Source: Kiritimatiellota bacterium (lineage in GTDB: Bacteria > Verrucomicrobiota > Kiritimatiellia > RFP12 > UBA1067). From it: a stretch of 38,025 nt of DNA. The stretch is from NCBI GenBank assembly GCA_009778475.1, contig WRJS01000022.1, positions 1 through 38,025 of the forward strand. The letters are read 5' to 3'. Positions 5,619-37,374 of the stretch are shown here, piece by piece. Within the stretch, counting starts at the first letter, position 1. Each line of letters begins with the position of its first letter. Below the pieces are notes generated by a model. It was not told the DNA's origin, did no database searches, and saw only the letters and a list, made by a program, of their open reading frames with translations. A program made the translations under genes and the position numbers.

Positions 5619-5707
5619 CCGGGAGCGCAAGGCTTCCGCCTTGCCAACCCCGGGAGCGCAAGGCTTCCGCCTTGCCAACCCCGGGAACGCAAGGCTTCCG
5701 CCTTGCC
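5619..5707. repeat. Three tandem copies of the GGGAGCGCAAGGC palindromic repeat
   Basis: Three copies of a unit of about 27 bases (CCGGGAGCGCAAGGCTTCCG, then CCTTGC) are spaced 30 bases apart. The core GCAAGGC-TTCC-GCCTTGC can fold into a 7-bp hairpin. The same unit recurs at 18369-18580, 28513-28540 and 33681-33709, always between genes. The rest of the 5471-5797 gap holds only the terminator. Confidence 0.9.
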
Positions 5708-5797
5708 ATCTAAAAATTCGGATCACCCGCGCCACCCCGTCTCCCTCATGCCTGATTTCTCGTTAGAAGTGAAACGCAACGAAGACGCGGATAGCCC

Positions 5798-5880: not shown

Positions 5881-7059
5881 GTGACAAGGAAAAGTGTCCA
5901 GCAGAAACAGGTGCATGAGCGACGTTGGCTCGTGAGGGATGATGAGCAGGGCGAGACGTTCGGTCCCGTCACGGTCGAGACGTTGCGGGCATGGGCGCAG
6001 GACGGGCGGCTGGCGCCCACGAGCATGGTCTCGGAGAACGCGGCGGACTGGTCGCCTGTGGCGCATTTCCCTGGGCTGGGGATGGACTGGGTGGTCGAGA
6101 CGTCGCCGGGGGCGTTCTATGGACCGATCCATCTGCAGGCGTTGGAGGGGTTGCTCAAGGACGGCACGATTGCCGCGTCCGCCATCCTGTTCGCGCGGCG
6201 TGACAGCATGACGGACGCGCCTCCGCAGCAGGGCGGCGCAGTGGCGCGCGCGGAGGCGGCGGAGCAGGCGCTGGCCGAGTGCGTCAAACAGGCGGAGCAG
6301 GCGCAGCGGCTGCTGACGGCGCAGGTCACGCAACTGACGGCGCAACTGTCGGAGTGCGAGATGCGTCTGCAACGGGCCGACCAAAAGACGGCGGAGGCGA
6401 ACGCGCTGCCGCTGTTCGCGCAGCAAATCACCTCCGCGCAGGAAATGGTCGCGCAGCAGATCCTGGATGCCGTGGCGGATGTGCAGACGGCGGTCGCAGA
6501 ACAGGCGGAGCAGGCCGCGGCCTTGCGGCAAGCGTTGAGCCCCCTCCCCGTCAGGGATGCGGTTGCGCGTTTGCAGGCCGCCGTGCAGGATGTGCCGGGG
6601 GAGGTCGCGCGCGCGCTCGCGCCGGAGCGGCAGGAGATGCTGGCGGCGATCGCGAACGTCCAGCCGCAGACGGTCCAAGCCGTTGAGCGGAGTGTCCGTG
6701 ATGCGGTGGCCGCCGTGTCGCAGCAGGTCCGGCAGCTTTCGGAGGGCCTGCGCGAGATGGAGCGGGCGCTGGCGGCAAGTCCGAAGGCGGCGGCGCCTGA
6801 GCCGACGGCCGGGCGCGTGTATGTGGAGGCGGAGGCGGTGGAAGTCATCCCGCCGGCTGCGCACGGGCAGTCGCATGGCCGCCGGGCGCACGCGAAGGCC
6901 GCCACGCACGAGACGCCGCCCGAGGTCCAGACCGCGCATCACGACACGCGGAGGCACAGCGGCGAAGGGCTTTCGATGGCGGAGCTCGAGCAGCAGGCCC
7001 AGCGCGAGCTGGAGCGGCTCGGCGCACAGGGCGTGAACCTTTTCAAGCGGAAGAAATGA
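5881..7059 (+). CDS. Tandem GYF_2-domain / coiled-coil protein (first paralogue)
   Basis: A 392-aa soluble protein. Residues about 15-58 are a GYF_2 (DUF4339) domain: WLVRDDEQGETFGPV, then RAWAQDGRLAPTSMV and ADWSPV. A second, more divergent copy follows at about 61-110 (WVVE...FYGPIHLQALEGLLKDG). Residues about 118-290 are Ala/Gln/Glu-rich coiled coil, and the C-terminus is basic (LFKRKK). GYF domains are known to bind proline-rich peptides, so an adaptor role is likely. The next gene is a paralogue with the same layout. The start is GTG 5881, the first start after the in-frame stop at 5866. An in-frame GTG at 5911 is an alternative, and neither has a strong ribosome binding site. No enzymatic motif was seen. 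Confidence 0.8.
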   Translation: MTRKSVQQKQVHERRWLVRDDEQGETFGPVTVETLRAWAQDGRLAPTSMVSENAADWSPVAHFPGLGMDWVVETSPGAFYGPIHLQALEGLLKDGTIAASAILFARRDSMTDAPPQQGGAVARAEAAEQALAECVKQAEQAQRLLTAQVTQLTAQLSECEMRLQRADQKTAEANALPLFAQQITSAQEMVAQQILDAVADVQTAVAEQAEQAAALRQALSPLPVRDAVARLQAAVQDVPGEVARALAPERQEMLAAIANVQPQTVQAVERSVRDAVAAVSQQVRQLSEGLREMERALAASPKAAAPEPTAGRVYVEAEAVEVIPPAAHGQSHGRRAHAKAATHETPPEVQTAHHDTRRHSGEGLSMAELEQQAQRELERLGAQGVNLFKRKK

Positions 7060-7121
7060 CGGGGTTTTTCAGGATGAACGGGATTATGTTTTTGTTCTAA
7101 GAACGCGAAACGGAGACCTTG

Positions 7122-8831
7122 ATGTCACAGCAAGCAGAGAACGACAGTGCGGTCCAGTGGTTTTTGCGGACAGGCGGCGAGACCGTGTTTGGGCCTGTCA
7201 CGCGGGAGGGCCTTATCGTCTGGGCGGAGCAGGGGCGCATCCTGCCGGGGCATGAAGTCTCGGCCGACCGCAAGAAGTGGCTGCCGGCCGTCTCGGTTGA
7301 GTTCCTCGATATGCGCTGGTACGTTGACGACGGCGACGAGGATTTGCGCGGGCCGCTGAACCGCTTGGCCGCCGAGACACTTGTCAAGAGCGGCAAGGTG
7401 AGCGCGGGGGCGCAGATTGTCGCTGCGGACGAGGTGGACGCGGCCGACGCGGAGGAGGAGGAGAAGCCCGCCCCTGCGCCGCGCGGCAAAGCTTCGGCGC
7501 GGCCGCAGGCGCAAGAGCTTGGGCTTGGGCTGGCGGAAACGCCGCCGCCAACGCGCAGCAGCCGCGCGGCTTCGGATGCCGCGCGGAACACGAGCGCGCT
7601 CCAGCAGGAATGCACGCGCCTGACGGCGAAGGTCGAGGAGCTGGAGGCGCTGTGCGAGACGCTGAAGCGGAACAGCGAGAAAGATTCCCGTGCCGCTGAG
7701 CGGCGTGCGGAGCAGTTGCGCCAGCAGGTCAAGAAGCAGGAGGCCGAGATTGAGGACTTGAACGCGGCGGCGGGCCAGCCCGCCGCACCTGTGGTGGATG
7801 CGGCGCTCGTGCGCGAGCGCGACGACCTGCTGGTGCGGCTCGGCGAGACCTGCCGCGAGCGCGATGACCTGCTGGCGACGGCCGCGGATCAGGACGAGGC
7901 GTTTAAGAGCCTGATCCAGCGCGTTGCCGAGCTTGAGCAGAAGGTGCAGTCGGAGACGCAGAAAAACGATGAGGCCAATCATGCGCTCACCACGGATGAG
8001 CGCGTCATCCAGCAGCTGCGCAACGAGCTGAAGAGCTGGCAGCAGGCGTGCCAGAAAAGCACGGCGACGGAGCAGGCCGCGCTGGCGCGGGCGGCGGATG
8101 CGGAGTCGGATTTGGCGGACGTGCTGGCGACGGCCAACGCGCGTGACGCGGAGTACGCCGAGAAAATCGCGGGCCTCGAAAAGAACGCCACGCAGTCGCC
8201 CGAGGAAATCGCGCAGTTCTATTCCGATCAGGCCGCCATCTATCAGTTGTGCAAGCATGAGCTGGAGACCCTCGCGAAATCGCTGGAGATGGAACGGACG
8301 TACTTTGAGCAGCTGAAGCACATCTCCGCGCAACGCGCGCAGGCCATGCAGGAACGCAAGCAGACGCTGATGCGCCAGCTCGGCAACAGCCCTGCCGACA
8401 TGACGCGCCTGAGCGCGCGCGAGCAGTCGTCCGATCCGGGCGCGGTGCGCATCCGCAACGAGTTCGACAACCTCCGCTTCACGCATGAGCGCGAGATGCG
8501 CCAGTCCGAGGAGCGCGAGCGCGAGATGCAGCGCAAGCTGCACGTGTTCGAGTCGGAGGTCGGGCGCCTGCGCGAGCTTGCCCTGGAAGGCGAGAAGCTC
8601 GGGCGGCGCGTGCAGGAGCTCTCGGATCTGCTCCGCAAGCGCGAGCATGAGCTTGCGGAGACGCGCGCGAAAAACGAGTCCGAGCGCGAACAGTTCCAAG
8701 GCAGCCAGAAGGCCCTGCTCACGCGCATCGAGGCGCTGGAGCGCGGTGTCCGTCCCGAACCGGCGGAGACCGTCCAGTCCGCCGACGCCAAAACCGTCAA
8801 GCTCGCCTCTTGGATGCGTTTTAAACATTAG
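7122..8831 (+). CDS. Tandem GYF_2-domain / long coiled-coil protein (second paralogue)
   Basis: A 569-aa protein. Residues about 10-58 form a GYF_2 domain (WFLRTGGETVFGPV, WAEQGRILPGHEV, KKWLPAV) and about 66-110 a second copy (WYVDDGDEDLRGPL). A linker follows, then about 400 residues of nearly continuous coiled coil (heptads rich in Glu, Arg, Leu, Gln) up to the C-terminus (SWMRFKH). It has no signal peptide or membrane segment, so it is probably cytoplasmic. It shares its domain order with the gene 60 bases upstream, which points to duplication. ATG 7122 is chosen because GGAG (7112-7115) lies 6 bases before it; an in-frame TTG at 7119 is less likely. It may be an elongated scaffold, but the function is unknown. 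Confidence 0.8.
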   Translation: MSQQAENDSAVQWFLRTGGETVFGPVTREGLIVWAEQGRILPGHEVSADRKKWLPAVSVEFLDMRWYVDDGDEDLRGPLNRLAAETLVKSGKVSAGAQIVAADEVDAADAEEEEKPAPAPRGKASARPQAQELGLGLAETPPPTRSSRAASDAARNTSALQQECTRLTAKVEELEALCETLKRNSEKDSRAAERRAEQLRQQVKKQEAEIEDLNAAAGQPAAPVVDAALVRERDDLLVRLGETCRERDDLLATAADQDEAFKSLIQRVAELEQKVQSETQKNDEANHALTTDERVIQQLRNELKSWQQACQKSTATEQAALARAADAESDLADVLATANARDAEYAEKIAGLEKNATQSPEEIAQFYSDQAAIYQLCKHELETLAKSLEMERTYFEQLKHISAQRAQAMQERKQTLMRQLGNSPADMTRLSAREQSSDPGAVRIRNEFDNLRFTHEREMRQSEEREREMQRKLHVFESEVGRLRELALEGEKLGRRVQELSDLLRKREHELAETRAKNESEREQFQGSQKALLTRIEALERGVRPEPAETVQSADAKTVKLASWMRFKH

Positions 8832-8879
8832 CCGTTTTTTTTCTTTTCACATCAACCCTCATTACGCTACACTAAGGCC

Positions 8880-9776
8880 ATGAATGACATTCCTCCGAAA
8901 CACACGCCGGATGATTCAGCCACCGCGAGTGGCAATCTGGTTTCGTTCTATCAGGCGGCCTCGAACGCCCAGCCGGAATCCTTTCCCGTTCTGAAAGCCT
9001 TCCAGGACTACATCGAGGCCGAACGCGCGCAGGCCCGCAAACGGGTCGTCTCGCTCTCGGTCATCTTTGCGGTCATCATCTGCGCGGTCATCGGCGGTTT
9101 CCTCTCGACGGGCATCTACCTGATGCGCGACAGGGCGCAGATGCAGGATCAGATGATGCGCGACCGGACGCAGATGCAGGACAAGATCCTCGAGATCGCG
9201 CTTGCTGCCCGCCCGGCCGCGGAGCCGCCGGTCCCCGCCCACATCGCGCCGCCCGCGCCATCTGCCGCGCCGCAGGTTGACATCGTGGAAAAGACCGTCG
9301 AGGAAATCTCGAAGGTCACCGCCGCCTTGCAGTCCGACATCGGCAAGCGCATCGACGGCATCTCCGAAATCAGCTCGCAGGTGCACGAGAAAGTCACCTC
9401 CCAAGAGACCGAGCTGGAGAAGCTCCGCCAAGAGCTCGGCCAGATGAAAGAGCAGAACCAGCTGCTCAAAGGCGACGTCGAGGTCATGCGCACCGCCACG
9501 GCCCGGGCCACGCCCGTCACGCCCGGACTCACGCCGCCCACAGTCGCCGTCGCCGTGCCGCCCGCGCCCGACGAGCCGCCAGACGTGCCGGGCGTTGTCG
9601 TCGTGCCGCCGCCGCCCAAGGAAGACCTGCGCTTCCCGCCGGCCACCAAAGAGCCCCCCGCCACACCCGACGGCGTGAACCCGCCCGACGCCCCGAAAGG
9701 CACGATGCTCACCTCCGTGCCGCTGGAGTCGAAAGCCAGCGGCACCATCCCGTGGCGCGTCATCATCCCCGAGTGA
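8880..9776 (+). CDS. Single-pass membrane protein with coiled coil and proline-rich tail
   Basis: A 298-aa protein of unknown function. An N-terminal soluble part of about 55 residues is followed by one transmembrane helix (about 56-81). Next come two near-identical 10-residue units (MRDRxQMQDxM), an Ala/Pro linker, and a coiled coil at about 133-205. A strongly proline-rich tail at about 212-272 contains PPAPDEPPDVPG and VVPPPPKED. The flanking GYF_2 genes encode domains of a family that binds proline-rich ligands, so this protein is a natural candidate partner. Its topology is not fixed by the sequence. If the tail is outside the cytoplasm the interaction would be impossible. ATG 8880 follows a short AAGG site, and the phosphatase gene starts 6 bases after its stop. 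Confidence 0.75.
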   Translation: MNDIPPKHTPDDSATASGNLVSFYQAASNAQPESFPVLKAFQDYIEAERAQARKRVVSLSVIFAVIICAVIGGFLSTGIYLMRDRAQMQDQMMRDRTQMQDKILEIALAARPAAEPPVPAHIAPPAPSAAPQVDIVEKTVEEISKVTAALQSDIGKRIDGISEISSQVHEKVTSQETELEKLRQELGQMKEQNQLLKGDVEVMRTATARATPVTPGLTPPTVAVAVPPAPDEPPDVPGVVVVPPPPKEDLRFPPATKEPPATPDGVNPPDAPKGTMLTSVPLESKASGTIPWRVIIPE

Positions 9777-9782
9777 CACGTC

Positions 9783-10289
9783 ATGGCACGCCAAGTCCTG
9801 TTCGTCTGCACCGGGAACATCTGCCGCAGCCCGATGGCCGAAGGGTTATTGCGTGCCGCGTTGCCCAAGGGGACAATATGGCGTGTGACCTCGGCCGGGA
9901 CAAGCACCCTGGACGGCTTCGGCGCCTCCGCCCACGCCATAGACGTCATGGCCGAAAAGGGGATCAGTATCAAGGCGCACCGCAGCCAATCGGCCACGCG
10001 CGATCGGGTCTCCCTGTCCGACGTCATCATCGCCATGACCGCTGAGCACGCCCGAACGCTGACCAGCCGCTTCCCCGAATGCCGCGACCGCATCCACCTC
10101 ATGCGCGCCTTTGACCCCGGCTCGCCGCCCGGCAGCGACGTGAGCGACCCCTTCGGCGGCACCCTCGCCGAGTACCGCGCGTGCTGCGCCCTCTTGCACA
10201 AGAGCATGCCCGGCCTGCTCGCGTTCCTCGAAGCGCACGGGGGGCGTGCTGAGGGGATGGGCAGGGCGCCTCGCGAACCATCGCCCTGA
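9783..10289 (+). CDS. Low-molecular-weight protein-tyrosine phosphatase
   Basis: A 168-aa enzyme that hydrolyses phosphotyrosine (LMW-PTP family, also related to arsenate reductases of the ArsC/Wzb fold). The N-terminal P-loop CTGNICRS gives the catalytic CX5R motif, with Cys9 as nucleophile and Arg15. The general-acid Asp lies in the DP pair at residues 122-123 (SDVSDPFGG). The length is near the family norm of about 150 residues. The gene begins 6 bases after the proline-rich membrane protein, so the two are almost certainly co-transcribed. It could act on a tyrosine kinase or on phosphorylated proteins of this operon, but no kinase is present in the window. It may equally serve another process. 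Confidence 0.9.
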   Translation: MARQVLFVCTGNICRSPMAEGLLRAALPKGTIWRVTSAGTSTLDGFGASAHAIDVMAEKGISIKAHRSQSATRDRVSLSDVIIAMTAEHARTLTSRFPECRDRIHLMRAFDPGSPPGSDVSDPFGGTLAEYRACCALLHKSMPGLLAFLEAHGGRAEGMGRAPREPSP

Positions 10290-10318: not shown

Positions 10319-10768
10319 ATGATCATCGACACCCTCACGCAGGCATCCCGTTATGAAGCGCTTCACCCGCGCTTCAAGGCCGCGTTCGACTTCCTGCGCG
10401 GCACCGGCCTGCAATCGCTCGCCCCCGGCCGCACGGAGATTGACGGCGACGACCTTTTCGCGCTCACGCAAGCCTACGAGACGCAACCCGCCCAAGGCGG
10501 CAAGCTCGAGGCCCACCGCACCTACATCGACATCCAGTTCGTCATCAGCGGCGAAGAGCTCATCGGGTACGCGCCCTTGCAAGGCCAGCCCCCGGCCGGC
10601 CCCTTCGACGCCGAGAAAGACATCGGGTTTTACCACGGCGACGCCAGCTTTACAAAACTTTCCGCCGGAATGTTCGCCATCCTCTTCCCCCACGACGCGC
10701 ACCTCCCCGCACGCCACCTCACAACCCCGGCACACGTCACGAAAACCGTTCTGAAAGTGCGGGCATGA
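10319..10768 (+). CDS. YhcH/YjgK/YiaL family protein
   Basis: A 149-aa cupin-like protein of the YhcH/YjgK/YiaL (DUF386) family. Members are linked to sialic acid and other sugar metabolism, but most have no proven reaction. The family hallmark KLEAHRTYIDIQFVISGEE is present at about residues 61-79, followed by FDAEKDIGFY and the metal-site-like FPHDAHLP near residues 124-131. The length fits the family (about 150 aa). ATG 10319 has GGAG about 9 bases upstream. It follows the phosphatase by 29 bases and is probably the last gene of the operon. No sugar-catabolism neighbours are in the window to indicate a substrate. Confidence 0.85.
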   Translation: MIIDTLTQASRYEALHPRFKAAFDFLRGTGLQSLAPGRTEIDGDDLFALTQAYETQPAQGGKLEAHRTYIDIQFVISGEELIGYAPLQGQPPAGPFDAEKDIGFYHGDASFTKLSAGMFAILFPHDAHLPARHLTTPAHVTKTVLKVRA

Positions 10769-10798: not shown

Positions 10799-10838
10799 TG
10801 GCGATTGCTTGCCGTCCGCCGGTTCCGCCCGCATACGC

Positions 10839-11101
10839 TCGCTCTCCATATTACGCCCACCATGACGACAGGGCAGGTTTACTGGTAGAGACGGATGGTT
10901 ATCCGTCTCCCCGTGTCATTGCCTTCAGGAGACGGATAATCATCCGTCTCTACGATGCTTGCCCTCCATATCACGCCCACCATGACGATAGGGCAGGTTT
11001 ACTGGTAGAGACGGATGATTATCCGTCTCCCCGTGTCATTGCCTTCAGGAGACGGATAATTATCCGTCTCTACGATGCACGCTCTCCATATCACGCCCTC
11101 C
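10839..11101. repeat. 120-bp tandem repeat (2.2 copies) with nested inverted repeats
   Basis: Two copies with an exact 120-base period (about 10841-10960 and 10961-11080) are followed by a partial third copy to 11101. Each copy holds GTAGAGACGGAT...ATCCGTCTCC and then GGAGACGGATAA...ATCCGTCTCTAC. Every arm is palindromic on its own, and the two arms also pair with each other. The rest of the 10769-11498 gap is AT-rich with no gene seen; it holds the promoter at 11281. Confidence 0.9.
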
Positions 11102-11498: not shown

Positions 11499-14400
11499 AT
11501 GATTAAGTTCATACAGGCGGCTGCGGCCGCAATCACAAGGGCGGCCTTGGCCGCAACCGCGTTGGCGGTCATCGGGGTATCCAGCGCACAGGCGCAAGTG
11601 GAATACACAATCACAAAGAGCGGCTCGACTTACTCCGCCACACGCGTGGGCAGCGGGGTTATTTACAGCGACAACATCGTTCAAACCGTGGTGAACGCAA
11701 TCAAAGCCAACGCGAATGGCAACGCCAGCATCGTCACGTTCGGATCGGGCGGCAACACGCTGGACATCGGCAACGCCGGCATCAACCTGGACGGTTCGGG
11801 AGTCGGATGGAATGTCACGCTGCACGGGAAGTTGACATCGAGTAATTGGGGCGCTACGCTTACCATCAATAAAGGCGCCGCCGTCACATCCTACGCGGAT
11901 GTCGCCAACACGGGGATTGACGGGTATTGGGAAACTGCGATAAACGTATATTCTGGATCGATAGACAGTAAACAAGCTCCCGTTCATATTCGCGAAGGAA
12001 ACATCAGCAGCGCGTGGGGGCACGCCCTTTACGCCCAAGGGGATACTTTCGAAGTGCACGTCTGGGACGGCACGTTCACGTCCCTTGGCATGGCGATTTT
12101 CGGAAACAACGACGATTACCAACACGGATTTGAAGGAAAAATTTACATTCACGGCGGAAACTTTAGCTGCACAATACCCGTTTATCCCGCCATTGAAGCC
12201 TGCTCGTGTGAAATTCATATTTACGGCGGCACTATCTCCTGTCCTTCACCCAACAACGGCGTGGTGGGCGGTTACATGTATCAAGAGGGTTATTTTATTT
12301 TGGGAGGCGCTCCCGACATTGACGGCGCCCTTATTGTGAGCATTCCTCATGATAATCCCTATCCCTCCGATTATCAACATTATTATACCGTTCAAACTTA
12401 CGGTCCGGACGCTTTCAACCCCGGATCGCGCGTTTACGACATACGCGTAACCGATGGATTGGCGAACAACAGGGTTGTCGTGGCGAACGGCGCGAATTTC
12501 ATCTCAAACTTCAGGCTTGACCCGGCGGGTTCCGGCACCGCAAACTATACTTTGGTTGCGAGCGGAAACGACATCGTCATGCGGGAAAAATCCCAGGTCA
12601 GCCAAGATTATTGGTCGATGACGAACGCGACGCGCATGGTGCACTACACGAACGGCACGCCGGACGGGTGGGATTTGACGGTTTCATTGAACAGCGGGGA
12701 AGTTACACTCGCACCCGTCGCACCTAATGCGCCGGCCAACAAAGCGCCCGCGCCCGTGGGCGGCGTGTTGGTCTGCCCCTTGGAGGACACGATTTACGAC
12801 ATGTACGGCACAATTTGCCCGTTGGTTGCGATCGCGGACTGCGGTAGCGTTTATATTGCGCCCACGTGGTACTATACCCAACCGTTTTGGTTTATCAATA
12901 CAACGCTTACGGGCGTCACCTTCCCGGACACGCTCACGTACATCGGGAATGATGCGTTTAGAAGTTGCGCACAACTCACGAACGTTGCTTTTCCCAATTT
13001 TCTCGTGACCATCGGAAATTCCGCATTTAATTATTGCTCGGGTCTCACGGGGACGCTGACGCTCCCCAACTCCCTCGTGAACATCGGCTATAATGCGTTT
13101 TTCTGGTGCACAGGTCTTACGGGGAATCTCGTCATCCCGAACAACGTACAAACCATCGGAAGTACCGCGTTTTATGGTTGCACGGGGATTGACGGTTCGC
13201 TGACGCTGGGATCGTCGCTGCAAACCATCCAAGGGGGTGCGTTTAGCGAAATCCCTTTCAACGGTACGCCTTTGTCGTTCCCAAATTCGTTGGTGAACAT
13301 TGAGCATCAATTATTCATGTGGAGCACGTTTTCGCATGTTTCTTCGTGGGGTAATTTGAGAGAAATAAATTATTCGTTGTTTGATAAAGCGACATTCACG
13401 ACCAACTTGTTTGTCGTTCCTCCGCAAATCACGAATATCACTTACAGCGCATTTTTCGGAGCCAAATTCGGCGACGGAAACGGCGTGGTCTTTGTGGGAG
13501 ACGAAGTGGAGACTATCGGTTGGAACGCTTTTGATAACGCCCAATACAAGATCATTTCCGTTCCTTCCACAAGCGTTGAGTTTGAACATGCGGTTTTTTC
13601 CTGGTGCCCGGAAGGAGGAAATGTCATTTTCCGCGGTCAATATCCCACATTTAATGATCCAGAGTGGAATAAACTCTACGGAAATTTATATTCGGAAATA
13701 GGGAATTTTTCCGGTTTCGGCACGTCTTGGATTTACCGCGAACACCTTGCGGATTGGAACACAAAGAGCGGCGCTACGGCGCCCATTCAATCCGGTATTG
13801 CGGAATGGTTTGACCTTCCGATTTATTTGATTGACAATCAACTCACGTTCAACGCGCAGGGCGGGCTTTGGATGGAGGGCGCCGCGCCGTCGCCGGTGTT
13901 GTTCACTAATTCGCTCTTCGCGGCGTTGACGGGCGTGAACGTGCTTTGCCCCGCGTTGCCGGAAGTCAAAAAGTTGGGATACCATTTCAAGGGTTGGAAC
14001 ACCTCGCCGGACGGCAATGGCACGACATTGACGCCGGGGCTTCCGATTTCGCTCGACCATGACGCGATGCTCTACGCGCAGTATTCGACGGACGAAAACC
14101 ACATTGTTCCCGCGCACTGGATCGTCATCAGCCCCGACCGCATGGTGCACTACGACACCCACGAAAACCCCACGGGTTGGGAACTTCGCATTTCCATTGA
14201 CAAGGAAAACCGCGTTACGATTTTGGGTGATAATAATATTGGAGATGTTGTCAACTTCTATCCCGACGGTGAAGGTTTCTTGGATCTGCCCTTGGGCGAC
14301 CCGATTTACAGCATGTACGACATCGCGCGTTTCGGCGAAGAGGAAGGATACAACATTTCAAGGCAATTGTTTGTAATGTTCATGAACGACACTTATAGCA

Positions 14401-17400
14401 TGGAGGATTGTGTAAATTATCCTGAATTTATGCGCGCGGACTTCAATGGTGACGGCGTGGTGGATTTGGACGATTTAATGCCGATGGATGCGTGGTATAA
14501 TTTGCATTTCGCCCTGGATGACTTCATGTGTGAATACCCGCTTTATGACCACAACCCCTACTCGCCAATCATCCTTGTGGCGATTGCCGACACGGTTGGA
14601 AATTATAATAACTCGCCGTTTTATCCCGTGGCGGGACGCATTACGACGATGACCTTGCCGGACACGTTGGAATACATCGGCGATATGGCGTTTTTGGTTT
14701 TTGGCAATTTCAACGACCCGAATTTCACGACATTGCCCGATTCCGTGACCCATATTGGAAAACAAGCATTTTATATATGGGAATTTTTCGACCAGCCGTT
14801 CACGATGCCGGATTCCGTGGAATCGATAGGTGTGTCTTCGTTCGAGGGTTGGGTGAATATGAATTCCCCGTTTGTTCTTTCCGCCGGATTGAAAAACATC
14901 CCAGGTGGTGCGTTTGTAAAATGGGGTTTATACAACCAATCTTTCGCAATTCCCGCCGCAGTGACGAATATCGGACACAACGCTTTTTACGGTTGGTACG
15001 ATTTCGACCAGTTCTTCATCATCCCGGAAAACGTTGAGAGCATGGGAAATGGTGTTTTTGCAAATTGCTTTTCGCTTCCCGGTGTCATTTTCGAGGGGCC
15101 CTGTCCGGAATTCGTGACCATTGGGGAAATAAGTGGCATATATTATTCTTACAACGGATTCCCCAAGGATTTCGCGACGTGGGTTCACCGCGCACATGTT
15201 GATTCGTGGGAAAATGAATTCCCCGGAATCTTGGCGGGCAGCGCAATTTTGGACAACAACCCCCTGCGCGTGATTGAGCAGGAAATCACGTATGAGGTCG
15301 GGAGTGCGGTTTACGCCACGGCGCTCTACACGAACAGCGTGCTGGCGAATCTCATCAGCGGCAACAAGGTAACGCCGATTATCAACCCCGCCCCGCCGCC
15401 GCCGTCCATTCCGGACATGTATTTCGCGGGTTGGGTGGATGCGTCGGGCGCGGATTTCGACAATGTGACGGTCGTCGGAACAAGCGACTTCACGGTGTAC
15501 GCGGTGTTCGACGACCTGCCGGAGTTCATGAGCGAATTGCGTTTCAACAACGGCGAGCTCGCCACGGGCGGGCAGGAGAACAACTTGTACGCGTTTTACG
15601 GTCTGCCGATGCCCGCGCTCGATATGTCCGAACCGCCCGTATGGGATGACATGCACTTCATGGGATACTGGGATTCGGCGGAAGACGAAGGCACGATGTA
15701 TTACGGCCCGGACATGATGCCGGCGGTGACGGAATGGGACAAGGAGTACAACGGGGTCGTGCTCCTCTACGCGCGTTGGGGAGAACATCCGGTTTATTTG
15801 CACCAAGCTCCCGGCACCGGCGGCGCGACGGTGGTGTTCGCGACGAGCGGCAGCGTATTACCTATTGCGACCGCGCCGAAACACCCGCAAAGCAACATGT
15901 TCTTCATGGGTTATTTCACGGAAAACATGGGGAACGGCGTCCAATACTATAATTGGAATATGCGCGGACAGCAAAAATGGGTCATCGGCGGCCCGGAAAT
16001 CCTCTACGCGCATTACGAACAGTCGAACGCGCAGGTTAGTTTCAAGGACAGCGATTACGGGATAATGGACAACCCGCCGGCCCCGCAGTATTTCATGCCG
16101 GGGCAAGCCTACGGCACGCTTCGCAACGTGCGCGGCAAAATAAACGGCGTAACCGCATACTTCGCGGGCTGGTACACGGAGCCGGAGTGCATCAACAAAG
16201 TAACTGGCAAAACGGTTACCGATCCGAATGCGCAATCCCACATCTTGTACGCGAAGTTTACTGATACGCAGAACACCTCGCGCCTCCTTTACTACAGGCC
16301 GAACGGCGGCACAATAGACGGCGATCCGGCGATTTCGCTCTTGTTGGAGTTTGACAATTCCTTGACGGCGGGATTGATTATCATGGATTCGGAATATTAC
16401 AGGGAACCGGACTACGACCCGAAGCACGACTTCATCGGTTGGCGGCAGTACGACTCCGTGGGATTGCGTTTGCAGAGCGCGTGGATGGAATACGACACCG
16501 TCATGCCCCTCAACAACCGCATCTATGTCGCGCAGTGGAGCATCTATTGGGCGGACACGCCGTACACCGCGAACCCGGCGGTCACCAACGACCTGGGGCT
16601 CACGTGGCGCGACAACACCATACTCATCACCTCGACCAATCCCAAGTACGACCTCGGCGGGGCGGTCAAGAAGGGCAACGTGAAACTGAAGTACGAAATC
16701 GAATTGGGCGACGGCGAAGCGCCGGACGGACTCTTCGTGGATCCGGACACCGGCCGCCTCTTCGGAACGGTCGCGAACACCGCGCCGAACGGCAAATACG
16801 TTTTCGGCGTTACGGTCAGAGGTTACGAAGGCAACAACGGCACGGAACTCGAACGCGTTCCGCCCATCACCAAGTGGTTCACCATCGAGGTCGTCAACTA
16901 CGAAGAAATCGAACCCATGGTGACGGTGAGTTACGACCCCAACGACGGGACGGCTCCCGACTACTTCTGGCAGGAGGAAGTGCCGACTTCGGGATCCTAC
17001 TCCCACTACAACCCGCCGGCTGCGCCGCTTTATGACGGCTGGGCGTTCCAAGGCTGGTTCCTCGGCTCCAAGCGCATCACCGTCGCGACACCTCTGGCGT
17101 TGAACATCAATCACACCGTGACCGCGTTCTGGGCGAAGGTCAATGACCCGATCTACAGCGGCGACAACGACGATGGCATCATCACCATCCTCCCGCCGCC
17201 CGGCACCCCCGGCGTCACCAACGACGCGCCCGTGGAGATTATCGTGGACGACGGCACGGGTTCGCCCGTGGTCATCCCCGGCCACCTCGATCCCGGCGAC
17301 GCGCCGGGAACGTGGGTGGTCGTCCCCGAAGGCAATCTGCCTGCGGGCGAGGATCTGGACATCACGGTCGTCATCAACCCAAGGGAGCAGGACGAGATCA

Positions 17401-18365
17401 CCCTCGACTTCCCGGACGTGGACATCTGGACGGATTCCGAGTTCGACGACGGCAACGACGGCAACGGCTGGATCGCGTACACCCGTATCCTCAACCAGAG
17501 GTTCGGCAAGTACACCCCCGCCAGCAACGATAGCGAACCCCTCGGCGACAAGACCGTCACCATCACCATCTTCGACCCGGCGGGCAACGGCGGCGACGGC
17601 AGGTTCTACGTCTATCCCGGCCACCTCGACGCCGAAGGCAACATCATCCTCGACGGCCCCGTTGCCGACGAACTCATCGGCAAGGGCAACCTCGACATCA
17701 CCATCAACGTCGGCGGCGACACCGTCGCCGGGGCCGTGACGGTGCTGGAAGGGCCGGACGTGGCGTGGAACGCCCCCATCACGGATGACGATGCCATCCT
17801 CGGCAGCCTCGACCCCAAGGACATGGACGGCGACAGCCGCATCCATGACGGCGCGGTCGTCGAAATCATCCTCGGCGACGGCCGGAGGGTGCGCGGCACG
17901 CTGGCGGAGAAGGGCGGCGGGTACGGGTACGACATCGTGCTGGACGACGGCGAAATGCTGGAGGGCGGCGACACGATCGTCGGGATCATCGTGGATCCGG
18001 ACGGCAGTTACCCGCTGGAGATCCCGACCGTGAGCCCGCCCACCGTCACGGGCAACGGCGGCGAGCAGTGGATCATGGTCCGCGAGATCACCGCGCCGCC
18101 CCAGACCCTGACGGGGACGGACTTCGTCATGGCGTGGGACACCGAGCAGATCACCCTGCGCGGCACGGTCAAGTACATCATCTACACCTCCGAGGACTTG
18201 ACCGTCCCCGTGGGCGGCTGGATGACGTATGACACCAGCGCCCCCGCCACGCCCGCCGTGTTTGATGCCGTCTCTGCCGCATGGCACGAGGTCACGATGA
18301 CCGGCTTCGGCACCGACACCGCCCGCTTCTTCAAGGTCAAGGCCGTGAAGGCGGGTACGCTGTAA
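11499..18365 (+). CDS. Secreted BspA-like LRR and Listeria/Bacteroides-repeat giant protein
   Basis: A 2288-aa exported protein, probably surface-located. Residues 1-32 are a signal peptide (cleavage after SSAQA). Residues about 40-370 look beta-helical (repeated IYGG/IHGG strands). Two LRR_5 (BspA) blocks lie near 470-610 and 1050-1210. Each is introduced by a module with RMVHYxxxxxxGWxLxxS. A dockerin-like EF-hand segment (FNGDGVVDLDDL) is at about 981-992. Listeria/Bacteroides repeat domains (FKGWNTSPDGNG, FAGWYTEPEC and similar) occur between 780 and 1880. A putative Ig-type module (GLFVDPDTGRLFGT) is near 1745. The tail is Asp/Gly-rich and ends RFFKVKAVKAGTL, resembling the end of the 431 gene product. 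Adhesion or polymer binding is an inference from family knowledge. Confidence 0.85.
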   Translation: MIKFIQAAAAAITRAALAATALAVIGVSSAQAQVEYTITKSGSTYSATRVGSGVIYSDNIVQTVVNAIKANANGNASIVTFGSGGNTLDIGNAGINLDGSGVGWNVTLHGKLTSSNWGATLTINKGAAVTSYADVANTGIDGYWETAINVYSGSIDSKQAPVHIREGNISSAWGHALYAQGDTFEVHVWDGTFTSLGMAIFGNNDDYQHGFEGKIYIHGGNFSCTIPVYPAIEACSCEIHIYGGTISCPSPNNGVVGGYMYQEGYFILGGAPDIDGALIVSIPHDNPYPSDYQHYYTVQTYGPDAFNPGSRVYDIRVTDGLANNRVVVANGANFISNFRLDPAGSGTANYTLVASGNDIVMREKSQVSQDYWSMTNATRMVHYTNGTPDGWDLTVSLNSGEVTLAPVAPNAPANKAPAPVGGVLVCPLEDTIYDMYGTICPLVAIADCGSVYIAPTWYYTQPFWFINTTLTGVTFPDTLTYIGNDAFRSCAQLTNVAFPNFLVTIGNSAFNYCSGLTGTLTLPNSLVNIGYNAFFWCTGLTGNLVIPNNVQTIGSTAFYGCTGIDGSLTLGSSLQTIQGGAFSEIPFNGTPLSFPNSLVNIEHQLFMWSTFSHVSSWGNLREINYSLFDKATFTTNLFVVPPQITNITYSAFFGAKFGDGNGVVFVGDEVETIGWNAFDNAQYKIISVPSTSVEFEHAVFSWCPEGGNVIFRGQYPTFNDPEWNKLYGNLYSEIGNFSGFGTSWIYREHLADWNTKSGATAPIQSGIAEWFDLPIYLIDNQLTFNAQGGLWMEGAAPSPVLFTNSLFAALTGVNVLCPALPEVKKLGYHFKGWNTSPDGNGTTLTPGLPISLDHDAMLYAQYSTDENHIVPAHWIVISPDRMVHYDTHENPTGWELRISIDKENRVTILGDNNIGDVVNFYPDGEGFLDLPLGDPIYSMYDIARFGEEEGYNISRQLFVMFMNDTYSMEDCVNYPEFMRADFNGDGVVDLDDLMPMDAWYNLHFALDDFMCEYPLYDHNPYSPIILVAIADTVGNYNNSPFYPVAGRITTMTLPDTLEYIGDMAFLVFGNFNDPNFTTLPDSVTHIGKQAFYIWEFFDQPFTMPDSVESIGVSSFEGWVNMNSPFVLSAGLKNIPGGAFVKWGLYNQSFAIPAAVTNIGHNAFYGWYDFDQFFIIPENVESMGNGVFANCFSLPGVIFEGPCPEFVTIGEISGIYYSYNGFPKDFATWVHRAHVDSWENEFPGILAGSAILDNNPLRVIEQEITYEVGSAVYATALYTNSVLANLISGNKVTPIINPAPPPPSIPDMYFAGWVDASGADFDNVTVVGTSDFTVYAVFDDLPEFMSELRFNNGELATGGQENNLYAFYGLPMPALDMSEPPVWDDMHFMGYWDSAEDEGTMYYGPDMMPAVTEWDKEYNGVVLLYARWGEHPVYLHQAPGTGGATVVFATSGSVLPIATAPKHPQSNMFFMGYFTENMGNGVQYYNWNMRGQQKWVIGGPEILYAHYEQSNAQVSFKDSDYGIMDNPPAPQYFMPGQAYGTLRNVRGKINGVTAYFAGWYTEPECINKVTGKTVTDPNAQSHILYAKFTDTQNTSRLLYYRPNGGTIDGDPAISLLLEFDNSLTAGLIIMDSEYYREPDYDPKHDFIGWRQYDSVGLRLQSAWMEYDTVMPLNNRIYVAQWSIYWADTPYTANPAVTNDLGLTWRDNTILITSTNPKYDLGGAVKKGNVKLKYEIELGDGEAPDGLFVDPDTGRLFGTVANTAPNGKYVFGVTVRGYEGNNGTELERVPPITKWFTIEVVNYEEIEPMVTVSYDPNDGTAPDYFWQEEVPTSGSYSHYNPPAAPLYDGWAFQGWFLGSKRITVATPLALNINHTVTAFWAKVNDPIYSGDNDDGIITILPPPGTPGVTNDAPVEIIVDDGTGSPVVIPGHLDPGDAPGTWVVVPEGNLPAGEDLDITVVINPREQDEITLDFPDVDIWTDSEFDDGNDGNGWIAYTRILNQRFGKYTPASNDSEPLGDKTVTITIFDPAGNGGDGRFYVYPGHLDAEGNIILDGPVADELIGKGNLDITINVGGDTVAGAVTVLEGPDVAWNAPITDDDAILGSLDPKDMDGDSRIHDGAVVEIILGDGRRVRGTLAEKGGGYGYDIVLDDGEMLEGGDTIVGIIVDPDGSYPLEIPTVSPPTVTGNGGEQWIMVREITAPPQTLTGTDFVMAWDTEQITLRGTVKYIIYTSEDLTVPVGGWMTYDTSAPATPAVFDAVSAAWHEVTMTGFGTDTARFFKVKAVKAGTL

Positions 18366-21173: not shown

Positions 21174-23543
21174 TTATCGCTCCTTTTCCGGCAACGAATC
21201 CCAGCACTCGTCCTGAAGCGTGTTGATGATTTCAATCATTTTTTTAGCCTCTGGCCACTCTTGGAACTGCGGGTTGCCATACTCGTATGTACGGTAACGC
21301 ACCCCGTCATGGATTTCAACGACATAGCTTATGCCGTCAAGAACCCCCGCTTCATTCGGCAAAACGGAGGAGTCGGGCAACGTCAGTATCCCCAGCGCTT
21401 CTACCTTGTCCCAGAGGCTCGCCCAGCTTGTCTTCGGCGTGAGCTCGTAAACCGGCTTTGACTCTTTGTAAAGCGATTCATAGATTGCGCTTTGCTTTTT
21501 GTTCAGCAGGTGCTTGTTCTGGAACACCTCTTGCACACGGAAATAGCCTTCGTTTGTGTAAAACCCCGTCCACTCGCCGTTATGGCGGCAGAGCCTTACC
21601 CCTTCGAGGGGAGAAAGGCCAAAACCCATCCAGACGCGCACCTCCAGCGACCCAGAGGGTACCCCCGTTTCGCGCAGCGGCCTCCAGTTTATTTTTTCAG
21701 ACAGCGTGTTTATGGACTCGAAGAAAATAGGCTCCCAGCTGGCATTCGGTATCCCATGCCATCCTTTCAGCCTCTCCTCCGCCACGCGGCGCACCGATTC
21801 GCGCTCATCGTTCTTGGCAATGTCCGCAAGAAGCGCGGGATCGGTGAGTTGCCTTGTCGCCTTTTGGCGCGTATCGCTGTCCTTGCTATTTTTAGCAAAT
21901 TCCGCAAGGAATGCTTGGTCGCAGAGGTTGCCCAGCGCTAGGTCGCGCATCTCCTTGCTTACATCACTCTTGATGAACGCTGCAAGGAGCGCTTGGTCTT
22001 TGAGATGGCGGAGGGCTTCTCGGCGCACGTCGTCATCCTTGTCGTTTCTCGCAAACTCCGCAAGGAGGGCTTGGTCGTCAAGCATCAATACCGCCTTTTT
22101 GCGCACATCATTATTCGCGTCGTTTCTGGCAATATCCGCAAGGAGCGTCTGGTTATCCAGCCGGGACACCGCTTCGTAACGTACCAGCCAGTCACGGTCA
22201 TTTTTTGCCAACGCTTCAAGGAGAGCGCGGTCTTCAAGCCTCGCCGCAGCAGATCCACGGACATGACCGTCCTCGTCTTCATTTTTTGCGATGTCTGCGA
22301 GAATTGTTTGGTCTGCGAGCGCCCTGATTGCCAGCTTGCGCACCCTTTTGTCGCTGTGGTTTTTCGCGATGTCCGCAAGGAACGTTTGATTGTCGAGTAT
22401 TACTAAATGTCCTGTTGCAGTGAAACGCACCCATTCGTCTTTATCATGCCGAACAATGTCCATCAGGAGTGCCGGATCTTTCAGCCTCCATATTGCCGCT
22501 TGGCGTATATCGCTGACTGCGTCATTTCTCGCAAGCTCCGCAAGGACGGTCTGATTGGTGAGCGTGTATATGGCCGCGTAGCGTACAGAGTAGTCCGCAT
22601 CATTTCTCGCAAGCTCCTCAAGGACGGCCTGATCGGTGAGCTGGTCTGCGGCAGCGCTGCGCACTTCCGCGTCCTTGTCATTCTTTGCGATATCCGCGAG
22701 AAGGGTTTGCTCTTGGGATTTGTCCTCAAGTATCCAGCCTTCCATGTACACCTTCTGGACGAGGGCGGCACGGAGTTTTTCACGCTCGGGATGTTCCGTG
22801 ACCGAGACAGGGGGATTTGCACACGACACGACAAATGCAGACGATAGAAGCAGGGCTGTTGATGTTAGACCTCCAGCCTTGAGGACGGCCCGCAACGTTA
22901 CAACTACCTTATCAGGTCTAGGGGCTTGTTCAAGGTCACTTTCATGGTAATCCTGTTTTTCCTTGAGGTCAAGGAACTCCAAGATATACGGGTCTTTGAG
23001 AATATAATCGGGAGCGGTTCTCGGCTCAAGGGATTGAATTTCACGCCTTACGCTCTCTCGCCCGCTCTTCTGCGTGGCAAGCAGCCGTTCGTAAAAGAAC
23101 GAGTTGATCTGCCGCTCTAACTGACGGACAGTCCATGCGGACTCGACACATTCCCGAACGTAAAACTCACGGCGCGACGCATCTTCTATCTTCATCAGCA
23201 GGCGATAATGCGACCAGCTCAATTCGTGCCACAGTGTGGCACGAATCGGGAACGTATTGTAAAACTGGCGCATTCGGCGCAAACTATTTTCGTCGAAGCC
23301 CTTCCCGAATTCCTCCGTCAATTGCCCCGACAAATAGCGCAACAGCCCTTTTCCGTATTCCGCGCGATCCCCAACAGATTCCTCAATCTGACGCCCGACA
23401 TCCCAATAGGCTTCAACCATAGCGGAGTTTATGGCGACGTAGGCTTTTGTCCGCGCTTTCGCGAAGGTGTCCCTTATCCCCTGATAGACGACGATGTCAT
23501 CCGATTGGTTATGTTTCATATTTTGTGTCATGGCAGTCGTCAT
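21174..23543 (-). CDS. DUF1016 N-domain fused to a lipoprotein with HEAT-like repeats
   Basis: A 789-aa reading frame with two unlike parts. Residues about 15-208 match the N-terminal domain of DUF1016/YhcG proteins (INSAMVEAYWDVGRQI, WSHYRLLMKI, DPYILEFLDLKEKQDYHESD). The family's C-terminal PDDEXK nuclease domain should follow, but is absent. After SDLEQA the sequence changes to a classic lipoprotein signal with a basic start and lipobox VVSC|ANPP. Then come about 12 repeats of about 25 residues (DQxLLAxIAKNDxDxxVRxxA, HEAT/LRV-like), roughly residues 275-595, and a C-terminal domain of unknown type (EVRVWMGFGLSPLEG). An internal TTG at 22895 with AAGG upstream could start the lipoprotein alone. 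This may be a deletion fusion, a decayed gene plus an intact lipoprotein gene, or an assembly join. Confidence 0.75.
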   Translation of the reverse strand: MTTAMTQNMKHNQSDDIVVYQGIRDTFAKARTKAYVAINSAMVEAYWDVGRQIEESVGDRAEYGKGLLRYLSGQLTEEFGKGFDENSLRRMRQFYNTFPIRATLWHELSWSHYRLLMKIEDASRREFYVRECVESAWTVRQLERQINSFFYERLLATQKSGRESVRREIQSLEPRTAPDYILKDPYILEFLDLKEKQDYHESDLEQAPRPDKVVVTLRAVLKAGGLTSTALLLSSAFVVSCANPPVSVTEHPEREKLRAALVQKVYMEGWILEDKSQEQTLLADIAKNDKDAEVRSAAADQLTDQAVLEELARNDADYSVRYAAIYTLTNQTVLAELARNDAVSDIRQAAIWRLKDPALLMDIVRHDKDEWVRFTATGHLVILDNQTFLADIAKNHSDKRVRKLAIRALADQTILADIAKNEDEDGHVRGSAAARLEDRALLEALAKNDRDWLVRYEAVSRLDNQTLLADIARNDANNDVRKKAVLMLDDQALLAEFARNDKDDDVRREALRHLKDQALLAAFIKSDVSKEMRDLALGNLCDQAFLAEFAKNSKDSDTRQKATRQLTDPALLADIAKNDERESVRRVAEERLKGWHGIPNASWEPIFFESINTLSEKINWRPLRETGVPSGSLEVRVWMGFGLSPLEGVRLCRHNGEWTGFYTNEGYFRVQEVFQNKHLLNKKQSAIYESLYKESKPVYELTPKTSWASLWDKVEALGILTLPDSSVLPNEAGVLDGISYVVEIHDGVRYRTYEYGNPQFQEWPEAKKMIEIINTLQDECWDSLPEKER

Positions 23544-23558
23544 GGTTCTATGTTTTCT

Positions 23559-24368
23559 CTATTTCAGCAGTTTCCTGCTTTCGACTTCCGTTAAAATCCT
23601 CATCTGCTGGATGGCGACCTGATTGAGCTTGATCAGGCGCTCCCGTTGCGGGAGACCTTCGTTGATGAGCACGGCATTCAGGTTCTCCATGTTCGAGAGG
23701 CAGATCAGCTCGTTGATGGCGGCATCGTCGCGGATGTTGCCCTTGCGGTTAGGATTGGCTTTGCGCCATTCCTGGGCGGTCATGCCGAACATCGCGACGT
23801 TTAGCACGTCCGCCTCGTTGGCGTAGATGGCGGAGGTCTGACAGCTTGTGAGTTCGGCGGGGACAAGGTTGCGCTTAACGGCATCGGTGTGGATGTGATA
23901 ATTGATTTTCGCCAGCTCGCGCTTCGCCGACCAGCCGAGCAGCTTCTGCTCCTCCTCTTTGAGGCGCTGGAACTCCTTGACGATATACAGTTCAAATTCT
24001 ATTGAAATCCAACTTGCAAACTTGAAGGCAATATCCTTGTGGGCGTATGTCCCCCCCCCATAGCGTCCAGATTTTGAAACTAACCCAATGGCGTCCGTTC
24101 GTTCAATCCATTTTTGAGGGGAGAGCGTAAACGCATTCAATCCCGCCTCTTTTCTAAACCCCTCGAATTCGAGGGGTTTAAAATTCGGGTTATAGAGGCA
24201 TTCCCATATTCCCAAGAATTCAATTGTATTCCTATTCCTCAACCAATTACCAATCACAGCGTTCGTGTCATCGGTTTTGAATCTGGCAATATCGGTAATG
24301 GAAACATAATCCGTTCCATTTCGCTGGATAATAGTTACATCAATGTCTTTTACTGTGATTTTTGCCAT
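23559..24368 (-). CDS. KilA-N domain protein
   Basis: A 269-aa protein with an N-terminal KilA-N DNA-binding domain (about residues 5-135). Visible elements are YVSITDIARFK, IGNWLRNRNTIEFLGIWE, AGLNAFTLSPQKWIE, and YAHKDIAFKFASWISIEFELYIVKEFQRLK. The family is typical of phage antirepressors and nucleo-cytoplasmic virus proteins. The C-terminal half (about 150-269) is helical and also seen in chromosomal KilA-N proteins. It ends 15 bases before the DUF1016 fusion gene. A perfect 26-bp palindrome lies inside the gene at 24155-24180, and a related one lies just upstream of its start. It may bind DNA and regulate itself, which is inference. The ribosome binding site is weak (GAGAA). Confidence 0.85.
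   Translation of the reverse strand: MAKITVKDIDVTIIQRNGTDYVSITDIARFKTDDTNAVIGNWLRNRNTIEFLGIWECLYNPNFKPLEFEGFRKEAGLNAFTLSPQKWIERTDAIGLVSKSGRYGGGTYAHKDIAFKFASWISIEFELYIVKEFQRLKEEEQKLLGWSAKRELAKINYHIHTDAVKRNLVPAELTSCQTSAIYANEADVLNVAMFGMTAQEWRKANPNRKGNIRDDAAINELICLSNMENLNAVLINEGLPQRERLIKLNQVAIQQMRILTEVESRKLLK
24155..24180. repeat. 26-bp perfect palindrome inside the KilA-N gene
   Basis: The half-site TAAACCCCTCGAA is followed immediately by its exact reverse complement, with an EcoRI-like GAATTC centre. In the protein it encodes the FKPLEFEGF part of the KilA-N domain. Its arms match those of the imperfect palindrome at 24391-24415. Confidence 0.95.
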
Positions 24369-24390
24369 AAAATCATTCTCGCTTATTACT

Positions 24391-24415
24391 TAAACCCCTC
24401 ATAAATGTGGGGTTT
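24391..24415. promoter_or_regulatory. Candidate operator or hairpin upstream of the KilA-N gene
   Basis: AAACCCC-T-CAT-AA-ATG-T-GGGGTTT forms an inverted repeat with a single T:T mismatch, 23 bases before the KilA-N start. It shares TAAACCCCTC with the intragenic palindrome. It could be a protein-binding site or a terminator-like hairpin for the upstream nucleotidyltransferase gene, although no strong T-run follows. The remaining 24416-24575 gap shows nothing else I can name. Confidence 0.5.
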
Positions 24416-24575
24416 CATAAAAATCCCCCACGAGGTTGTGGCTTGGCGCGGAGCCCGTGTTGCATGGCGCCGCCTGCCCCCGACCAAACAACCAAAACGG
24501 CAAGCATATCCATTATCCGCTGATAACACAGGGATATGAATGGTACCGTTTTTAATTTCGGAAGTTGTTTCAATT

Positions 24576-25127
24576 TCATTTTCGATTTGAAGGGTTGATT
24601 TTCGCCATCACTTCAATCCGTAGCGTGTCGGGAAGAAGCGTGATGATTTGCGGATGGCTTTCCACAAGGCGCAGGATATCCAAAAAGTCCTTTTGCCGCT
24701 TGCTAGGGCGACGCGACGAGTCGAAATACGCGGCGATTTTTCCGGCCAGCGTATCCTCTAGCGACGCAACGCGCATCAGTATCCCCCAGACGTCCGCCGG
24801 AATGGCGCGGTTGGGGACATCGCGGTAACGCTCCTCCGTGGAAATCTGGATGCTGACGCATGAGGTGCCTTTCACATTGACCGACCACTGGAACCGCTCC
24901 GCGACAAATCCCTCTTTTTCAAGCGCCTTGACTGCCGCGTCAACGGACTCTAGCGCCACCACCATGTCAACATCCGCCGTCACCATCGGCTCCGCCGCCC
25001 AATGGTTCACGGCAATCCCGCCAATCGCGCACCAACGAACGCCAAGCCGTTCCAATACGGCAATGGCGCGCACAACATCGCCGCCCCCGCCCGCAGTCTG
25101 CCAATCGTAAAACGCCTTTGCCGTCAT
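24576..25127 (-). CDS. Nucleotidyltransferase-fold protein (AbiEii/MNT-like)
   Basis: A 183-aa protein with the nucleotidyltransferase fold. GGIAVNHW (about residues 36-43) is followed by TADVDMVV (about 50-57), giving the GG...DxD-type metal site. KDFLDILRLVESHP near residues 146-159 is typical of AbiEii-type and related minimal nucleotidyltransferases. These enzymes transfer nucleotides to RNA or protein and often act as toxins or antitoxins. No obvious cognate antitoxin of the AbiEi type adjoins it, so a toxin role is only a possibility. ATG 25127 has GAGAGG 5 bases upstream. It lies 46 bases after the ORF6N gene in the same orientation. Confidence 0.75.
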   Translation of the reverse strand: MTAKAFYDWQTAGGGGDVVRAIAVLERLGVRWCAIGGIAVNHWAAEPMVTADVDMVVALESVDAAVKALEKEGFVAERFQWSVNVKGTSCVSIQISTEERYRDVPNRAIPADVWGILMRVASLEDTLAGKIAAYFDSSRRPSKRQKDFLDILRLVESHPQIITLLPDTLRIEVMAKINPSNRK

Positions 25128-25173
25128 TGAGCCTCTCCCAATGAATCCCTTATTCCAGATAAGGCGAACGTGT

Positions 25174-34571: not shown

Positions 34572-34608
34572 AGCAAAATACACCAAACGTCTCAAAAGTA
34601 GGATGGAC

Positions 34609-35649: not shown

Positions 35650-35694
35650 CTGTCAAATCGCATTGAATCTAATTGTCAACTGAAAGGGATTGTT

Positions 35695-37374
<1,680 letters not shown>

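Follow-up and report, generated by a model that had tools for sequence, protein, structure and literature searches.

Tandem-GYF proteins and a single-pass membrane protein at one locus

The stretch of DNA analysed here (the window; 38,025 nucleotides, contig WRJS01000022.1 of the Kiritimatiellota bacterium assembly GCA_009778475.1) carries five + strand genes in the order gyfA, gyfB, a gene for a transmembrane (TM) protein, a gene for a low-molecular-weight protein phosphatase (LMW-PTP) and a gene of the YhcH family, as judged by open reading frames (ORFs) and their translations. An earlier note had read the first four as one operon that may encode a receptor with a proline-rich tail, its GYF-domain adaptors and a regulatory phosphatase; its gene calls are real and correctly placed, with both gyfA and gyfB borne out by their ORFs and GYF_2 scores. 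Our main subjects are GyfA, GyfB and the TM protein, which is probably a conserved functional partner of the Gyf proteins class-wide. Their features are as follows:

5881-7059, + strand: gyfA (392 aa, soluble); N-terminal tandem GYF units, then a coiled-coil-like region
5926..6198, + strand: GyfA tandem GYF region, residues 16-106
7122-8831, + strand: gyfB (569 aa, soluble); tandem GYF, coiled coil and a conserved C-terminal SWMRFK
7155..7424, + strand: GyfB tandem GYF (GYF1 residues 12-61, GYF2 residues 64-101), from AlphaFold2 and Foldseek/VIA-align
8799..8828, + strand: GyfB C-terminal [PS]WM[KR]LK-type motif, from C-termini compared across order and class
8880-9776, + strand: gene for the TM anchor (298 aa), a single-pass protein whose N-terminus is predicted to be inside
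8889..8900, + strand: cytosolic diproline motif I-P-P-K, TM protein residues 4-7; proposed GYF ligand
8982..9047, + strand: juxtamembrane helix FPVLKAFQDYIEAERAQARKRV, residues 35-56; strongly conserved class-wide
9048..9125, + strand: transmembrane segment, residues about 57-82
9507..9701, + strand: linker rich in proline, residues 210-274; sequence not conserved, predicted to be disordered and in the periplasm
9702..9770, + strand: C-terminal beta-hairpin, residues 275-297, ending WRVIIPE (predicted local distance difference test, pLDDT, 83-89)

The Pfam profile GYF_2 finds one unit per protein, scoring 38.2 bits in GyfA (cut-off 25.8) and, just under that cut-off, 23.3 bits in GyfB; the second unit of each escapes Pfam. 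In GyfA it is seen by alignment, with G81 and P82 conserved, and in GyfB an AlphaFold2 model of residues 1-114 (mean pLDDT 81; all our models are of single chains) contains two consecutive beta-beta-alpha-beta GYF-like units. The description of both proteins as tandem-GYF coiled-coil proteins thus stands. The best structural matches of the GyfB model are GYF domains or GYF-containing chains (GltJ, Smy2, GIGYF1/2, CD2BP2); while their E-values are weak (best 0.011), the GYF rows are well separated from unrelated ones. The model therefore predicts a GYF fold in GyfB 1-114, although most matches stop at about residue 63, leaving the fold of GYF2 less tested than that of GYF1. The coiled coil is very variable in length, with Gyf proteins reaching up to about 2700 residues, and the PWMKLK-type C-terminal tail is conserved across order and class. 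GyfB has N- and C-terminal motifs that match those of the single large Gyf protein found in the rest of the class. The same genome encodes another GYF_2 protein (G000:C24:10233-10376; 60.2 bits, open frame of 265 aa), for which the tests made gave no relation to the Gyf/TM pair.

Gyf and TM proteins appear as a pair across the Kiritimatiellae

We compared the window with 60 relatives of the same order, 193 genomes of the class and 241 genomes of the phylum. Genes of relatives were predicted with a home-made ORF caller, which sets some frames wrongly and some starts too far upstream; presence and absence were taken from the genome search tables and not from this caller. The class label Kiritimatiellae for homologues was read from contig names, and some records carry other labels. 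Among the order relatives, a GyfB-type protein is found in 58 of 60 and the TM family in 51 of 60. Across the class, GyfB-type proteins occur in 135 of the 193 genomes and the TM family in 79 at an E-value of 0.001 (69 at 1e-5 or better). The TM family is class-restricted: it was found in 31 of the 241 phylum genomes, and all 31 belong to this class. Furthermore, the two co-occur, Gyf being present in 66 of 69 TM-positive genomes versus 69 of 124 others (Fisher p = 4e-10, with relatedness uncorrected).

The genes are also adjacent. Many families in the class have a gyf gene directly upstream of the TM homologue, and in the class loci that we fetched – 20 in all, most of them picked because both matches were visible on one contig – gyf is upstream and on the same strand in 19, with a gap of -22 to 24 bp in 14. 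The one exception is L242; in L236 an additional fragment separates the two genes, and in L231 and L235, where the ORF caller missed the TM gene, it was positioned from search coordinates. In family f4, TM comes after gyfA-gyfB, and in four loci the next gene belongs to one and the same cluster (metallo-beta-lactamase fold in the two members scanned). Adjacency in many families and co-occurrence together support the functional partnership that the earlier note had suggested for the GYF proteins and the TM protein and, as far as comparison of sequences goes, there is good support, at the level of the class, for a Gyf coiled-coil protein and a TM anchor forming a pair.

A convergent LysM gene with coiled-coil matches is found just after the TM gene in L233, L225, L234 and many other class genomes, hinting at a cell-wall context. 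MreB was tried as a discriminating profile and set aside as uninformative, being present in 187 of 193 class genomes.

The TM protein has a predicted periplasmic tail and three conserved parts

The TM protein has one hydrophobic segment. When lysine and arginine are counted in the 15 residues on each side of it, the N-terminal side is higher in 43 of 44 homologues and lower in none, with means of 4.7 residues before the segment versus 1.7 after it. This excess predicts a cytosolic N-terminus and a periplasmic tail, contrary to the cytoplasmic tail assumed earlier. The tail is indeed about one-third proline (22 of the 61 residues from 212 to 272, or 36%), as the note had stated. Proline makes up 2.5-10% of the tail in homologues from outside the order and at most about 20% in those from within it, which makes proline richness a feature of the lineage. 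The linker varies between relatives in both length and sequence, and the PPDVPGV motif, which had been likened to a eukaryotic GYF ligand, is not conserved among them. The proline tail was accordingly ruled out as a ligand of the GYF domains by its predicted periplasmic topology and lack of conservation.

Three parts of the protein are conserved. The cytosolic N-terminus carries a diproline, PP[KQ], usually preceded by a hydrophobic residue. It is followed by a positively charged, nearly invariant juxtamembrane helix, [FL]PVLxAFQ[ED]FLxxERxxxRxR; the invariant residues of the TM protein in alignment A5 are F35, P36, V37, L38, A40, F41, Q42, E48, R55 and F63. At the C-terminus, a WR..(L/I)P element, predicted to form a beta-hairpin (pLDDT 83-89), is shared by much of the class. 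Profile scans of the TM protein gave no SPOR or TonB_C domain and no GYF or zinc-ribbon match, and GyfA and GyfB matched with GYF only.

GYF1 may dock on the cytosolic diproline and the juxtamembrane helix

GYF domains are known binders of proline peptides, and a diproline is frequent on the cytosolic side of the TM protein: PP[KQR] is present in the N-termini of 34 of 44 homologues, with about 4 expected from shuffling. The enrichment is seen both outside the order (13 of 18 homologues versus 2.1 expected) and within it (21 of 26 versus 1.9), and the motif recurs in ten families outside the order. In the tails, a stricter diproline pattern is found in 3 of 44 homologues versus 8.4 expected. 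In family f3, for which genome searches of order and class found no convincing TM homologue, GYF1 has lost its Gly-Pro in 9 of 9 readable units and GYF2 keeps it (f3 GyfB was read in 10 genomes; that of G057, where L090 and L247 are one gene, is unreadable, its ORF start being too far upstream). A PPK in the C-terminal tail of Gyf was also considered as a second ligand and dropped, as it is not enriched (5 of 13 versus 3.5 expected).

We infer both a binding mode and a purpose for the pair. GyfA and GyfB would be cytoplasmic proteins with an N-terminal GYF pair and a coiled coil of variable length, and the TM protein would be a bitopic inner-membrane anchor with a short cytosolic N-terminus bearing PP[KQ], the juxtamembrane helix and one TM helix. 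On its periplasmic side, the anchor would continue as a disordered linker, proline-rich mainly in this order, and end in the conserved beta-hairpin. GYF1 would dock on the cytosolic diproline segment and the juxtamembrane helix, tethering the coiled-coil scaffold to the inner membrane, and the periplasmic arm of the anchor would reach towards the wall or the outer membrane. We consider the chances evenly balanced that Gyf and the anchor form a pair in which GYF1 docks in this way. That the pair amounts to a class-specific membrane-tethered scaffold, in which the diproline of a bitopic anchor recruits long coiled-coil proteins by GYF-diproline recognition in trans, is a tentative proposal to which we give clearly less credence.

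Several observations weigh against such docking. The covariation in f3 concerns a single clade and hence one event; f4 lacks the diproline, yet its gyf gene still adjoins the TM gene; and families f13 and f26 have Gyf proteins that retain the Gly-Pro of GYF1, with no TM protein found. In f1, the window's own family, the gyfA-gyfB and TM units usually lie on different contigs. Moreover, while GYF1 retains, as judged by alignment, Gly-Pro, Trp at positions 4 and 28 and an aromatic residue at position 17, the canonical GYF pocket is partly replaced in most members (Y6 by L/V, F20 by V/A and Y33 by R, the Arg being nearly universal). Instead of the canonical signature GP[YF]xxxx[MV]xxWxxxGYF, the sequences mostly read GP-[VA]-x4-L-x2-W-x3-G-R-[ILV]. 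These replacements, notably that of Y33 by Arg, make a eukaryotic PPG-type ligand unlikely and classic PPG-hydrophobic binding doubtful.

Two alternatives bear on this contact. Gyf and the TM protein could be partners through another surface, with the juxtamembrane helix packed against the coiled coil of Gyf or its WMKLK motif and the GYF domains binding some other protein. The helix is the most conserved part of the TM protein, the PWMKLK-type tail of Gyf is conserved as well, the linkage is kept in f4 despite the missing diproline, and the pocket aromatics are partly lost, all of which this explanation accommodates; it does not account for GYF1, and not GYF2, having lost its Gly-Pro in the TM-less clade f3, nor for the recurrence of the diproline across ten families outside the order, and we regard it as unlikely, if worth keeping in sight. 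Alternatively, the two genes could be linked only through a conserved gene order around dnaE and share no function. In many class genomes dnaE lies just upstream of gyf, which suggests a conserved housekeeping region, and f1 has its two units apart with neither lost. Co-occurrence, however, was counted regardless of linkage, and the linkage in f4 persists in a different context, so that an accident of gene order is improbable.

Several Gyf proteins of families f13 and f26, for which no TM partner was detected (L252-L256, L260, L261), carry PP[RK]SxP shortly after the GYF pair, an observation made post hoc.

The locus is best explained as two transcription units

The remaining features of the gene cluster are:

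8838..8874, + strand: promoter-like element ahead of the TM gene (TTT..CTTT followed by TAnnCTA), from an alignment of 11 upstream regions
9783-10289, + strand: LMW protein phosphatase, PF01451 match; TM neighbour in a subclade only
10319-10768, + strand: YhcH/YjgK/YiaL family protein, found beside TM in more relatives than the phosphatase is

The best explanation of the window is two transcription units side by side, with gyfA-gyfB as unit I and TM, LMW-PTP and YhcH as unit II. We aligned the regions upstream of the TM gene from the window and ten relatives, several of which have different upstream genes, and found the TTT..CTTT / TAnnCTA element conserved a few bases 5' of the TM ATG. In the window this element sits inside the 48-bp gap between gyfB and TM, and a consensus scan of the gap gives TTCACA-16-TACACT. 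At the same gap, GC skew at third codon positions (GC3 skew) flips its sign (+0.41 and +0.21 before it; -0.11, -0.32 and -0.44 after it). Some relatives show a similar contrast in the same genes, and the skew thus reflects the location of each unit and not necessarily a recent event. In a congener whose GyfB is 71-74% identical, gyfB is followed by tpiA (triosephosphate isomerase, recognised from its translation).

The LMW-PTP matches PF01451 at 114 bits (E 6.5e-33) and has the catalytic signature C9-X5-R15 with the DP aspartate D122; its gene starts 6 bases after the TM stop, confirming what had been noted before, and the catalytic residues are present. Among its best solved matches are tyrosine phosphatases and also the arginine phosphatase YwlE, and its best scores against curated families are far below the equivalog cut-offs. 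Orthologues directly follow the TM gene in at least 8 relatives, all of family f1; the nearest homologue of the phosphatase in f2, f5, f6 and G017 lies far from TM or on a different contig, and in some f1 genomes YhcH comes directly after TM with no phosphatase between. Since it is the sole PF01451 match in this genome and has the catalytic signature, the LMW-PTP may well be a housekeeping enzyme. Most likely it is a bystander to the Gyf/TM pair; the best explanation is that the LMW-PTP and YhcH genes are outside the pair and neighbour the anchor gene in a subclade.

These results leave little of the receptor operon proposed in the earlier note, with GYF adaptors binding the proline-rich tail and the phosphatase acting as regulator. 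The gene order in the window, the 36% proline of residues 212-272 and the general affinity of GYF domains for proline peptides speak for it. However, the tail is predicted to be periplasmic and its linker is unconserved and proline-poor outside the order; the TM gene has its own promoter-like element, conserved despite differing upstream genes, and GC3 skew flips, which speaks against a single operon; the four-gene order is not conserved, gyfA-gyfB and TM-PTP being usually on different contigs in order relatives and the congener lacking the join; and the phosphatase accompanies TM in just a subclade of a single family, being located elsewhere in other families, which speaks against its regulatory role. 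Both outcomes named beforehand as refuting the proposal – a neighbourhood not conserved in relatives and a tail outside the cytoplasm, here by prediction – were found, and we consider it very improbable. A separate question, compatible with the two-unit explanation, is how gyfB and TM came to be joined in the window: a rearrangement specific to this genome may have brought them together, the window may have kept the order of an ancestor or, possibly, the assembly is wrong here. A chimeric assembly or a recent private rearrangement fits the reversal of GC3 skew across the 48-bp gap, the tpiA that follows gyfB in the congener and the separate contigs of the two units in f1 relatives with both genes located; adjacency of the homologues in f4 and across the class, on the other hand, means that the window could preserve an ancestral order, and we put a chimera or recent private rearrangement at somewhat less than an even chance.

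Surroundings of the gene cluster

Upstream of gyfA, a 31-bp unit containing GCAAGGCTTCCGCCTTGC is repeated three times in tandem (5619-5711) and belongs to a REP-like family: the 18-mer GCAAGGCTTCCGCCTTGC has 138 copies in the 3.97-Mb genome (71 forward, 67 reverse; control 0). On the other side, 120-bp direct repeats with 26-nt inverted repeats (GTAGAGACGGAT..) at 10837-11101 border a low-GC stretch 3' of the YhcH gene. The region is bordered by a very large ORF on each side. That at 395-5470 matches BspA-type leucine-rich repeats and GLUG, and that at 11499-18365 looks similar on reading. Further downstream, a - strand cluster at 21174-25884, with DUF1016_N plus HEAT repeats, KilA-N, AbiEii-like nucleotidyltransferase and ORF6N genes, suggests a mobile or phage-derived block, and at 34408-37374 a PF00144 beta-lactamase-fold protein is followed by an ABC protein with two ATPase domains.

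Significance and comparison with known systems

The class in which the Gyf/TM pair is conserved is mostly uncultured. If the proposed docking is true, it would provide a short peptide ligand for a bacterial GYF domain – to our knowledge, few such ligands are known – and a candidate cytoskeletal or envelope-linking system. The locus also illustrates how a neat neighbourhood in a single genome can mislead unless relatives are compared. We found no study of the Gyf/TM gene pair in the open-licence literature; one salt-tolerant fosmid related to Akkermansia has a DUF4339 gene among those listed for it (PMC3861447).

The LMW-PTP of the window shares the C-X5-R signature and the DP aspartate with YwlE and Wzb. 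FtsN- and TonB-like bitopic proteins, as generally known, resemble the TM protein in architecture only – a short cytosolic N-terminus, one TM helix, a long low-complexity periplasmic linker and a small C-terminal element – with no sequence relation. The eukaryotic GYF adaptors CD2BP2, Smy2 and GIGYF1/2 share the fold of the GyfB model (VIA Z 5.9-6.7 over 52-56 residues) and have Trp 4, Trp 28 and the aromatic residue at 17 in common with Gyf; unlike them, Gyf proteins have tandem units and, in most members, replacements of Y6, F20 and Y33.

A further comparison is with GltJ, which carries a GYF domain, a zinc ribbon and a TM segment on one chain. The GyfB model matches PDB entry 7z3c, the solved GYF domain of GltJ (AglX) from the gliding machinery of Myxococcus xanthus, with a Foldseek probability of 0.99 (E 0.05) and a VIA Z of 5.4 (root-mean-square deviation 6.4, 77 residues aligned). 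Neither GyfA, GyfB nor the TM protein has the one-polypeptide combination of GYF, zinc ribbon and TM segment. What GltJ and the Gyf/TM pair would have in common is a bacterial GYF domain tied to an inner-membrane protein; unlike in GltJ, the GYF pair is here placed on separate, soluble coiled-coil proteins.

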